A DNA stretch of 54,003 nucleotides from Allomuricauda sp. (lineage in GTDB: Bacteria; Bacteroidota; Bacteroidia; Flavobacteriales; Flavobacteriaceae). The notes beneath the pieces are model-generated. The model worked only from the letters and a program-made list of their open reading frames with translations, was not told the DNA's origin and did no database searches. The position numbers and the translations under genes are program-made. Numbering within the stretch: position 1 is the stretch's first letter; the number at the start of each line of letters is the position of its first letter. This document shows positions 10,606-13,266 of the stretch, one piece after another. Where the stretch lies: positions 1 through 54,003 of the forward strand of contig NZ_PABT01000012.1 in assembly GCF_002699205.1 (NCBI RefSeq), given 5' to 3'.

Positions 10606-11391
10606 ATGTCATACAGTGATTTTGAACTTTTAAAAATTGGCGATTCTTCTGCTTTGGACCATATCCATGCCAAATACTTTAGGAGTATATTTTGGATAGG
10701 TAAGCAATGGCTTAGTGATGAATTTTTAATAGAATCCCTTGTCCAGGATACCTTTTTAAAATTATGGGTCAATAGGGACAAATTGGAATCACCTGAGCAC
10801 ATTTTCTATTTCTTGAGGTTTGTGATGAAAAGGGAATGTATCTCATATTATAGAAAACCAAAATATAAGTTCTACAAGAAGGTCAACTCTCTGGAGGATT
10901 ATGAAAATTACCAAGATTACATGGCAGGGTATGATCCGGTAAATGATTCCAAAAACCTCGATGATCAGGAATCGACACAAAAATCCTTCGACCATATCAA
11001 AAGTATATTTCCCTTGTTGAATGCCGATAAAAGGCATTTGATCGAACTCTGTTTAAAATATGGCTTTCAGTACAAGGCTATTTCCAAGGTAATGGGTAAA
11101 GGCATCAATGAAACCAGTAGGGAAATAAAGGAAGCCATTGAAGATATTAAAACCATAGTCCATCAAGGAAACAAACTCGATTCCAGTGACAACATGACAA
11201 ATGAAATCAAGTTCAGTGGGGAGCTGAGCGAGGAGCAGGCCAAAGTTCTTGAAATGCGCTGTGAACTGAAATATACCTTTTCTGAAATAGCCAAAGAACT
11301 TAACCTCTCCCAAAAGGAAGTACATCAGGAGTTCATGAAAGCTTATAGGCTAATGAAGGCAAATCATCAATTGCAATTACAATCAGCTTAA
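10606..11391 (+). CDS. Sigma-70 family factor with two region-4-like domains, partner of dCas12f
   Basis: A 261-aa protein. Residues about 15-84 form an ECF-type sigma region 2 (YFRSIFWIGKQWLSDEF, VQDTFLKLWVNRDKLE, FVMKRECISYYRK). Residues about 129-185 resemble region 4 (LLNADKRHLIELCLKYGFQYKAISKVMG). Unusually, a second region-4-like helix-turn-helix follows at about 205-252 (LSEEQAKVLEMRCELKYTFSEIAKELNLSQ). The gene ends one base before the dCas12f ATG, so translation is coupled. No anti-sigma gene is next to it. Inferred role: it is brought to DNA by dCas12f and guide RNA and recruits core RNA polymerase. The extra C-terminal domain could contact dCas12f instead of a -35 element. Confidence 0.8.
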   Translation: MSYSDFELLKIGDSSALDHIHAKYFRSIFWIGKQWLSDEFLIESLVQDTFLKLWVNRDKLESPEHIFYFLRFVMKRECISYYRKPKYKFYKKVNSLEDYENYQDYMAGYDPVNDSKNLDDQESTQKSFDHIKSIFPLLNADKRHLIELCLKYGFQYKAISKVMGKGINETSREIKEAIEDIKTIVHQGNKLDSSDNMTNEIKFSGELSEEQAKVLEMRCELKYTFSEIAKELNLSQKEVHQEFMKAYRLMKANHQLQLQSA

Positions 11392-11392
11392 T

Positions 11393-12490
11393 ATGGGAAA
11401 GTCAACGCTAAAACACACTAGAAAGATTCAATTATTGATCGACCTCCCTACCAAGGACGAAAAAAAAGAGGTTATGGATATGATGTACCAGTGGCGGGAC
11501 CGATGCTTTAGAGCAGCCAACCTCATAGTAACCCATCTGTATGTTCAGGAAATGATAAAGGAATTCTCTTATCTATCCGAGGGGATAAAATATAAATTGG
11601 CTGATGAAAAAAAAGATGAAAAAGGAATTCTTAATCGTTCTAGGATAAACACTACCTATCGATTGGTATCTGATCGATTCAAAGGAGAAGTGCCGACAAA
11701 CATATTGTCCACCCTGAACCATGGTTTGATCTCCTCATTCAATAAAAATAGGATTCAATACTGGAAGGGCGAACGCTCATTGCCGAATTTCAAGAAGGAC
11801 ATGGCATTTCCTTTTGGATTGCAGGGTATAAGTCGGATTGTCTATGATGAAGAGAAAAAAGCCTTTTGCTTCCGTTTGTACCGGGTTCCATTTAAAACCT
11901 ACTTGGGCAAGGATTTTACCGACAAACGAATGCTGTTGGAGCGTTTGGTAAAAGGTGATGTCAAGCTATGTGCTTCGAATATTAAACTGAATGGCGGAAA
12001 AATCTTTTGGTTGGCGGTGTTTGAAATCGAAAAGGAAAAGCATATCCTAAAACCAGAGGTCATCGCAGAAGCATCATTGTCCTTGGAATATCCCATAGTT
12101 GTGAAGGCAGGAAAAAACAGACTCACAATCGGCACCAAGGAAGAATTTCTATATCGTAGGCTGGCTATACAGGCAGCCCGGAGAAGGGCTCAGGTCGGGG
12201 CGACCTATTCCAGATCAGGGAAAGGGTGTAAACGAAAAGTTAAAGCAGTGGACAAGTACCACAAAACAGAAAGTAATTATGTGGTACACCGCATACATGT
12301 ATACAGTAGAAAACTTATAGATTTCTGTATCAAGCATCAGGCGGGAACGCTTATTTTAATGACCCAAGAAGACAAGGTCGGTATTGCCAAAGAAGAAGAA
12401 TTTGTATTAAGGAACTGGAGCTATTATGAACTAATGACCAAAATAAAATACAAGGCAGAGAAAGCAGGCATTGAGCTGATTACTGCATGA
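11393..12490 (+). CDS. Nuclease-dead, C-terminally truncated Cas12f homologue (dCas12f)
   Basis: A 365-aa protein with the Cas12f/TnpB core order: N-terminal wedge/REC part, a beta-rich stretch (about 140-215), RuvC-I region, bridge helix with basic segment RRRAQVGATYSRSGKGCKRK, and RuvC-II region. It aligns by eye with the small Cas12f of uncultured archaea through FFIKNKVGT.../FCIKHQAGT... and the following WPYAEMQNKIEFKLKQYGIEI/WSYYELMTKIKYKAEKAGIEL. The RuvC-I Asp is replaced (SLSLEYP, Ser230), the RuvC-II Glu is replaced (GTLILMTQ, Met323), and the protein stops before the zinc finger and RuvC-III Asp. It cannot cut DNA but can plausibly bind guide RNA and target DNA. Coupling to the sigma-factor gene implies transcription activation. 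Confidence 0.85.
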   Translation: MGKSTLKHTRKIQLLIDLPTKDEKKEVMDMMYQWRDRCFRAANLIVTHLYVQEMIKEFSYLSEGIKYKLADEKKDEKGILNRSRINTTYRLVSDRFKGEVPTNILSTLNHGLISSFNKNRIQYWKGERSLPNFKKDMAFPFGLQGISRIVYDEEKKAFCFRLYRVPFKTYLGKDFTDKRMLLERLVKGDVKLCASNIKLNGGKIFWLAVFEIEKEKHILKPEVIAEASLSLEYPIVVKAGKNRLTIGTKEEFLYRRLAIQAARRRAQVGATYSRSGKGCKRKVKAVDKYHKTESNYVVHRIHVYSRKLIDFCIKHQAGTLILMTQEDKVGIAKEEEFVLRNWSYYELMTKIKYKAEKAGIELITA

Positions 12491-12530
12491 CAATTGGATA
12501 TTGAGGGTGCTTGTACACCCGTAAGGTGAG

Positions 12531-12625
12531 GTTGACAATAACACTCACTAAGTGTGAATAGCACATACAACTTGTGGGATACACGCTAACAATAATAATC
12601 AATAAGCTTAAACACCATATACAAC
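12531..12625 (+). repeat. Two degenerate 41-bp direct repeats, candidate crRNA repeats
   Basis: 12531-12571 (GTTGACAATAACACTC ... CACATACAAC) and 12585-12625 (GCTAACAATAATAATC ... CATATACAAC) match at 30 of 41 positions without gaps. They are separated by 13 bp. The GTTG...CAAC outline and length resemble known Cas12f CRISPR repeats, which end in ATGCAAC. The TTGACAAT start can pair with ATTGTCA at 13036-13042 in the tracrRNA-like region, as repeat and anti-repeat would. If real, guides would follow the repeats: the 13-nt piece TTGTGGGATACAC, or sequence from 12626 on. No third copy was seen. Confidence 0.5.
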
Positions 12626-12714
12626 GGACTTTTAACCACACTGGAATGCACTATTCTTTGATGACAGCCATTCATCTTGTAGGCAAAATTCATAAAAACC
12701 AGACAAAGGATTTA

Positions 12715-13100
12715 ATGTCCCAGTGAATTCTCAGTATTTTCAGTATCTCTGAGAGCACACTGTCCCAATGACTTGCTAAAAAACCCCATATTAAAGAATG
12801 CAATAGATTGTTTATCAGAAACTTAAAATAAACAACACTGCGTTGGCGTGTTGTCGTCTTGCTCTTCCGATTTTCCAAAAAGCAGAAAATCACTACGACC
12901 TGCGGTCGTTGGCACCAGTGCTTTAGGGGATTAAATGATTTTTGAGATTAAAAAGAGCCACTAAATTATGGGACATTGGGCTATCCTATCCAATATTACT
13001 AAAATCTCGAAACCCTTTATTTGTAAAGCTTTTCAATTGTCACATGGCAATAGGACAATTACACAATAGCCACATACATTGTAATTAATTAGAAACGACG
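12715..13100 (+). ncRNA. tracrRNA-like scaffold of the dCas12f system
   Basis: No gene fits this strand. The region folds as a chain of hairpins: CAGTG/CACTG with TCTCAG/CTGAGA (12721-12766), ACAACAC/GTGTTGT (12832-12854), GATTTTC/GAAAATC (12869-12891), ACGACC/GGTCGT (12895-12909), and GAGATT/AATCTC (12944-12949 with 13003-13008) enclosing AGCC/GGCT and ATTGG/CCAAT. TTAGGGGATTA (12923-12933) and CTCGAAAC (13006-13013) match, in order and spacing style, the conserved core I remember from the archaeal Cas12f1 tracrRNA (CUUAGGGGAUUAGAACUUGAG ... CCUCGAAAC). Two more hairpins follow (AATTGTC/GACAATT, AATTACA/TGTAATT). RNA ends are not defined. Confidence 0.65.
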
Positions 13101-13233
13101 GACATTATATGCCACGCTCGCCTGATAAAATTGAGCACCCTCCAATATGACACAAAAATCGGAATTTCAAATCACTACGGACTAATATTAGATGGATCAA
13201 TTTTTCCGTTTTGAGTGGTCTCAATTATCCGGT

Positions 13234-13266
13234 CCTTCCATAAAAGGAAAGGAAGCGATTTTTTCA
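13234..13266 (+). terminator. Candidate terminator of the guide-RNA transcript
   Basis: CCTTCC (13234-13239) pairs with GGAAAGG (13246-13252) with one bulge, followed within a few bases by six Ts (13259-13264). It faces the end of the convergent integrase gene. A transcript starting near the dCas12f stop and ending here would contain both the repeats and the tracrRNA-like fold. Confidence 0.4.

Follow-up and report, generated by a model that had tools for sequence, protein, structure and literature searches.

A sigma factor gene placed directly ahead of a gene for an inactivated relative of Cas12f raises the question of which genes such a pair would switch on, and in whose genome. The pair considered here lies in a stretch of 54,003 nucleotides from Allomuricauda sp. 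(Flavobacteriaceae; NCBI RefSeq assembly GCF_002699205.1, contig NZ_PABT01000012.1, positions 1 to 54,003), called the window below. A preliminary description proposed that this locus is an RNA-guided transcription system, with the guide choosing the gene to be turned on, and that it rides on a mobilizable unit. From comparison of the window with the rest of its own genome and with related genomes, we consider it quite probable that the sigma factor, the nuclease-deactivated Cas12f (dCas12f) and a guide RNA together activate host operons of the SusC-SusD-zincin type.

The sigma open reading frame (ORF; 10606..11391) and the Cas12f-derived ORF (11393..12490, 365 aa) lie on the + strand with 1 base between them, exactly at the coordinates given before, and profile searches bore out both families. 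The upstream protein is an extracytoplasmic function (ECF)-type sigma factor (sigmaE / RpoE): it matched NCBIfam sigma70-ECF (E=2.1e-23), Pfam Sigma70_r2 and Sigma70_r4 above cut-off, and PDB 9n9q_C (RpoE) at E=1.3e-159. The downstream protein matched the PADLOC Cas12f profile (E=9.9e-51) and PDB 9n9c, named "Nuclease-deactivated Cas12f" by its depositors (E=7.7e-234); NCBIfam guided_TnpB reached 67.7 bits, under its cut-off of 100, and Pfam Cas12f1-like_TNB and OrfB_IS605 gave weak matches under cut-off, the former covering just model positions 1-21 of 60. When aligned with the Cas12f effector 9nzo, Ser228 takes the place of the first RuvC Asp (VGVDLGI stretch), the Glu position falls on Met323/Thr324 or a gap, and the chain stops at residue 365, ahead of the zinc-ribbon part that carries the third Asp. 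We take these Asp/Glu/Asp positions to be the RuvC catalytic residues, as in the family at large, and judged by sequence they have been lost, in agreement with the preliminary description; Ser occupies position 228 in 117 of 121 aligned sequences (the window and 120 listed homologs). A sigma homolog stands alongside dCas12f in 52 of 55 relatives, and the own genome holds no second dCas12f (a single match at E<=0.001). In Allomuricauda taeanensis JCM 17757 (L004), dCas12f and sigma are identical to 9n9c and 9n9q_C over 365 and 261 residues, respectively. Because the window dCas12f is identical to this protein at 345 of 365 positions (95%), the window locus is an ortholog of the system with solved structures, which confirms its assignment to the sigma-E/dCas12f class.

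A guide RNA gene lies directly 3′ of the dCas12f stop codon. Its scaffold (12503..12571, + strand; alignment A2) ends in ...CACATACAAC and is followed by the guide, the first 17 nt of which (TTGTGGGATACACGCTA) occupy 12572..12588 on the same strand. The scaffold is present in 56 of 57 sequences (55 relatives and the window), being not found in the distant relative L057, and a stricter pattern retrieved the same 56 sequences with 87 guide RNAs, at least two of them in 20 of the 56. The 36 aligned guide RNAs are nearly conserved up to ACAAC and variable thereafter, and RNAalifold placed 3 stems on the alignment, with a double change in 5 of 18 pairs. The scaffold and guide of the window folded better than shuffled sequences (z -3.4; 1 of 200 shuffles was equally good), in agreement with the tracrRNA-like fold noticed earlier. 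The repeats noticed with it amount to two 37-nt copies (direct repeat D1, 12535-12571 and 12589-12625) that are 76% identical; these degenerate copies were the only repeats in 12400-13300, and a CRISPR array was rejected. The second copy (12589..12625, + strand) is likely a decayed guide unit. Additional guide RNAs in the own genome were also rejected (a single scaffold at E<=1), as was a known Rfam class for the guide RNA (nothing at gathering score). Scans of 10200-13300 for promoter-like and terminator-like sequences gave no signal (10 vs 8.9 and 3 vs 1.7 in shuffles). Tandem guide RNAs occur behind one dCas12f in L026, L041, L043, L047 and L048, with up to six counted in L048; some have differing guides and some are duplicated, an arrangement of one activator with several addresses.

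The own genome (4.47 Mb) was searched with an 18-nt pattern consisting of G and the guide, at up to 3 mismatches, with the reversed pattern as control. The pattern occurred at 5 places, compared with 2 for the control: the guide RNA gene itself, C47, C30, C40 and C53. The sites at C47 (1 mismatch), C30 (2) and C40 (2) are preceded by G, and the site at C53 has 3 mismatches and an A instead of G. The three G-preceded sites lie on contigs other than that of the window, and point in the sense direction toward SusC-type genes; their mismatches spare the G and the first 9, 11 and 14 guide positions. At C30 and C40, the distance from site to ATG is ~260 bp by arithmetic from the site coordinates. 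Pfam identified TonB plug and carboxypeptidase-regulatory domains, SusD and a Met-zincin (DUF4953, DUF5117) in the operons at C30 and C40, and SusD and a Met-zincin at C47, where SusC was read by eye. The earlier suggestion that the switched genes may be in a recipient genome agrees with these matches ahead of SusC operons on other contigs.

The same sites would also suit an RNA-guided repressor of SusC operons resembling TldR, with the sigma factor as an unrelated or anti-acting neighbour. TldR proteins, which are nuclease-dead TnpB relatives, repress flagellin genes (PMC13418256), and an R-loop at guide sites inside the leaders could block transcription started upstream. However, the sigma homolog keeps company with dCas12f in nearly all relatives, as given above, the A. 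taeanensis pair occurs in a single solved entry (9n9q), and the sites face genes, ~260 bp before SusC in leaders of the window type and 169-217 bp before sigmaE in the sister systems described below. We regard repression as very unlikely and read the sites as addresses for activation.

A conserved hairpin element precedes the sigma gene at 10337..10450 (+ strand; alignment A1, with covariation), and it likewise precedes four SusC operons of the own genome (C30, C47, C40 and C19; a further match at C5 was weak, 65.9 bits). By reading, 33 of 55 relatives have the hairpin; it immediately precedes the sigma gene in 32 of these, and in L047 it stands ~2.4 kb ahead of that gene. Over 42 distinct sequences, 99.5% of the cells are paired, compared with 32% when the partner is slid by one base, although the structure was derived from the same alignment, which favours this measure. 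Changes on both sides of a pair were seen in 137 cells vs 42 in shuffles, and none of 500 shuffles reached this count; a weaker covariation measure gave 10 double-change pairs vs 7.7 (10 of 500 reached it), and pair types showed no excess (364 of 500 reached the observed value). In 34 of the 42 sequences one particular stem pair is U-G, which favours an RNA structure over a DNA palindrome without proving it. Membership of the hairpin in a known Rfam class was rejected: nothing matched at gathering score, three small nucleolar RNA hits lay far below it, and five more loci gave none at E<=1.

In the window, a divergent small helix-turn-helix (HTH)-type gene lies at 9907..10206 on the - strand; it is weakly XRE-like (Pfam HTH_26, E=0.0031, below cut-off) and 97-100% identical in L002, L003, L004 and L031. 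Among 30 fetched hairpin loci, 29 have a small ORF that points away from the hairpin and lies 172-253 bp ahead of the hairpin's end motif. Ten of the encoded proteins were compared with Pfam: 8 match a helix-turn-helix model at E<=0.01, and 5 pass a Pfam cut-off. Downstream of the 30 hairpins lie SusC genes (plug motif) in 16 cases, sigmaE-dCas12f in 5, other ECF sigma genes (by reading) in 2 and neither kind in 7. The hairpin and the divergent HTH-type gene are common to the sigma gene and the target SusC genes. In addition, a short ORF (32-49 aa) that ends in FDILFKKKPKNPV or a similar sequence was seen 87-137 bp past the hairpin in L059, L060, L064, L083, L086, L090 and others; of 77 distinct hairpin loci, 19 have it, and none of these is among the 22 with sigmaE detected downstream. 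In own-genome leaders, the dCas12f target sits after the stop codon of this short ORF. At L135 and L148, the hairpin stands before other ECF sigma genes (177-180 aa, by reading) in genomes without dCas12f.

We also searched four close-relative genomes with the guide at up to 2 mismatches. The nine matches comprised four guide RNAs, three SusC-type hairpin leaders (L083, L086, L090) and two other places. The hairpin model found nine leaders in these genomes, eight of which were measured, with L170 left out. Leaders L162, L163, L168 and L169, in three genomes and not beside sigmaE, match the guide with 1-3 mismatches at a site that follows a G, 237-264 bp past the hairpin's end motif; the four leaders on element contigs had nothing better than 8 mismatches. 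For the lineage of the window, the site matched by the guide is thus not the hairpin but a second conserved one in the leader, ~235-265 bp past the hairpin's end, and no self-match was found.

Many relatives carry a different, sister guide resembling GCGTGGGCTCTCTTAT. The first 16 nt of the guide, at up to 3 mismatches, match the 3′ arm of the hairpin before the own sigma gene in 17 of 55 relatives, always on the + strand and preceded by G; the sister system of L008 (Yeosuana marina), for example, has 0 mismatches. Over 11 genomes, a sister-guide pattern gave 42 matches in 10 genomes vs 3 in the reversed control, 11 of the 42 being guide RNA genes, told by C in place of G. Thirty of these loci were fetched (9 guide RNAs and 21 other sites); 20 of the 21 sites start 25-27 bp ahead of the hairpin's end motif, 8 of them before sigmaE, 5 before SusC and 7 before other genes, and the remaining one (L113) has no hairpin. 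On this sequence pattern, sister-type guides acting on their own sigma hairpin are predicted to give positive feedback. A second dCas12f-like locus was seen in L002 (Allomuricauda abyssi), ~9 kb from the first (9010 and 20019-21088), with GCGTGGGCTCTCTTAT as its guide; this guide has a match (3 mismatches) in the hairpin ahead of the sigma gene of the first system, a possible case of cross-regulation.

The hairpin is more widespread than dCas12f. Among 299 genomes of the family, dCas12f was found in 12 (E<=1e-60; broken by stops in one of them, G281) and the hairpin in 53 (E<=1e-5). All 12 dCas12f genomes are among the 53, and the other 41 hairpin genomes yielded just one 52-residue fragment in a laxer dCas12f search. 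The two are associated (Fisher p 3e-10), partly by counting the hairpin beside dCas12f itself, which is the sole hairpin in G046, G149 and G177; when this copy was left out, by reading of coordinates, the hairpin was present in 9 of 12 genomes with dCas12f vs 41 of 287 (p 8e-6). A hairpin existing solely for dCas12f was rejected, as 41 of the 53 hairpin genomes lack dCas12f at E<=1e-60. Since most hairpin genomes are without dCas12f, regulators likely exploit a resident leader. The second leader site, too, is kept with 2-4 mismatches in L131, L136, L141 and L151, which have no dCas12f. Because motif and hairpin are kept without dCas12f, the guide cannot be taken as the cause of their conservation. 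The regulator likely adopts pre-existing conserved leader sequences as its addresses.

How would such a regulator reach its hosts? The pair lies in a conserved unit (7593..14769, no strand assigned) that we predict to be an integrative mobilizable element, with its right end at an attachment (att) core and its left end set where similarity is lost in common. The window aligns from 7593 (7579 in L004) to ~14769 with L002, L003, L004 and L031, with 91-95% identity in the main segments and ~80-85% at 12616-12688. The unit contains a MobB family relaxase gene (7698..8720, - strand; NCBIfam MobB_relaxase, 368 bits against a cut-off of 200; Pfam DUF5712), two small genes, the HTH-type gene, the hairpin, sigma, dCas12f, the guide RNA and a tyrosine recombinase (integrase) gene (13282..14532, - strand; Pfam Phage_integrase, Phage_int_SAM_5, Arm-DNA-bind_5). 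The two small genes (8726-9004 and 9008-9310; together 8726..9310, - strand) have no Pfam family above cut-off and may be MobA-like, judged by position only; both were also found in L002, L003, L004, L031 and L018. The segment 12690-13277 is not common to the four closest relatives and was rejected as part of the system for this reason; accordingly, the right end of 13266 given in the preliminary description overshoots the conserved part. The right-end att core, TCGTCGGGGTGGCAG (14745..14759, + strand), forms a junction in the 3′ end of tRNA-Pro in 6 of 11 relatives examined (L004, L005, L006, L010, L014 and L031, with 2 mismatches in L005 and L014). An att test found the integrase and the right core, and no left copy of the core.

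The same seven genes stand together in five genomes, and the flanks of the five copies are unrelated except for short edges, namely 48-62 bp at the left (L002, L003, L031) and 23-36 bp at the right. Further likeness is limited to a 27-base match between L002 and the window and a tRNA region common to L004 and L031; a 171-base stretch inside the element also matches window 24069-24239 at 70-73%. These data have to be weighed against a fixed chromosomal regulator whose adjoining relaxase and integrase came from separate, unrelated insertions. Such an arrangement would fit the lack of a left att copy, and 45 of 55 relatives have no full-length integrase (>=50% identity) within the flanking DNA retrieved, which contig ends cut short in some cases. 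Only 10 of the 55 have this integrase near dCas12f, 4 of these with a close MobB gene in the same layout, and in L018 a 96% identical MobB lies ~5 kb away in a different layout; the majority of relatives may therefore have the pair as a resident locus or on different elements. Against a fixed regulator, the seven genes are found together in five genomes at 91-95% identity in the main segments with unrelated neighbouring DNA, and integrase, dCas12f and the tRNA-Pro junction recur together in six relatives. We judge separate insertions to be rather unlikely for the window, where MobB relaxase, integrase and four other genomes with the unit at unrelated sites point to a mobilizable unit, as was first proposed.

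Several other features were noted around the element. An IS481 transposase gene (6419-7486, above cut-off) ends ~100 bases from its left end and may have cut that end. To the right, three consecutive tyrosine recombinase genes (15867-19123) lie between an AbiEii-type gene (14967-15848, - strand) and an AbiEi antitoxin gene (19391-20176, - strand). Window 46121-53126 is 87% identical, in reverse order, to the DNA that adjoins the L003 (Allomuricauda aurea) copy of the element on its right, a possible tie to a larger mobile region. At the other end, the window encodes a peptidase C39 ABC transporter (1424-3703) and an 821-aa protein (3851-6316) whose TonB plug domain is oddly placed, at residues 623-724.

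Several observations weigh against activation of SusC operons by an element-borne system. Guide position 15 is mismatched in all three own-genome sites, and the fourth leader, C19 (SusC and SusD by Pfam), has a site with 4 mismatches in which the first seven guide positions are kept. Two of the nine close-relative matches (L088 and L091) are outside hairpin leaders, a self-match at up to 3 mismatches is absent in 38 of 55 relatives, and G015, one of the 11 genomes, gave no match to the sister guide. As noted, target motif and hairpin persist in genomes without dCas12f. In L031, the dCas12f gene seems to contain a frameshift (1096 bases, best segment 294 aa). At the element's ends, no tRNA gene follows on the right side in the window, L002 or L003, and a second att core copy was not found at the left. 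Part of this would be expected if the guide had been copied from a conserved leader, hence the likeness, and the window copy were a passive cargo in decay that regulates nothing at present: the mismatches between guide and targets, the decayed second repeat, the target motif kept without dCas12f and the apparent frameshift in L031 all suit that explanation. Nevertheless, both ORFs are open in the window and have 90-98% matches of full or near-full length in L002, L003 and L004, and the three sites retain the G and an unbroken run of the initial guide positions. We find passive cargo distinctly unlikely and still favour RNA-guided activation of the SusC operons.

How the system might work can be outlined from these data. 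The element would enter a cell by mobilization and integrate, with tRNA-Pro as the commonest site seen. By analogy with the identical or near-identical solved proteins and the work reported on them, dCas12f would bind the guide RNA, sigma and RNA polymerase would be recruited next to the RNA-guided R-loop, and transcription would start a fixed distance downstream without promoter motifs. Host SusC-SusD-zincin nutrient-uptake operons would thereby be turned on, a conserved resident leader being taken over. In sister lineages, the guide would act on the hairpin before its own sigma gene and give positive feedback, and the window lineage would use the second leader site instead. More broadly, and only tentatively, we suggest that host nutrient-uptake, and possibly phage-receptor, operons are captured by an RNA-guided sigma factor that spreads on a mobilizable element. 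The element would carry a copy of the hosts' own HTH-hairpin leader ahead of its sigma gene, which would place regulator and targets in one regulon; guides aimed at the hairpin would produce positive feedback, and those aimed at the second leader site would not. The hairpin leader would then be a structured element of SusC operons, so far undescribed and older than the RNA-guided system. This wider picture has somewhat less than an even chance of being right.

If the proposed targets are correct, naming likely host genes of a natural RNA-guided activator makes the purpose of such systems testable in culturable flavobacteria. The payload of the predicted transferable element would be a regulator, not an enzyme. 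The comparison also brought out a conserved hairpin leader, without Rfam match, that activator and targets have in common. The kind of system is already known, as near-identical proteins have solved structures. The host targets, the element and the common hairpin leader are new as far as could be checked, and the dCas12f-sigmaE papers might already report them.

The nearest known system is the dCas12f-sigmaE of Flagellimonas (Allomuricauda) taeanensis (PDB 9n9c, 9n9m, 9n9o, 9n9q), reportedly described by Hoffmann et al. and Xiao et al. It has the same two genes in the same order, with 95% (dCas12f) and ~90% (sigma) identity to the window proteins, the same scaffold and the same 7 kb element; the guides differ at one base in the first 17, and the window copy lies in a different genome at a different insertion site. 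We take the deposited dCas12f complex to bind a guide RNA, to recruit polymerase, and to start transcription at a fixed distance from the R-loop, with a G 5′ of the target. TldR, the nuclease-dead TnpB repressors of prophages, is likewise RNA-guided, mobile-element-borne and aimed at host surface-protein genes (PMC13418256). TldR represses, unlike the activation predicted for the window system, and is not known to work with a sigma factor. Type V-F CRISPR-Cas effectors (Cas12f, e.g. PDB 9nzo) are homologous to the window dCas12f and have a similar guide-RNA layout, but the window protein is without RuvC residues and no repeat-spacer array was found at the locus. Finally, integrative and mobilizable elements of Bacteroidota likewise combine a MobB relaxase, a tyrosine integrase and an att core at a tRNA end; the window unit differs in its cargo, an RNA-guided transcription pair.

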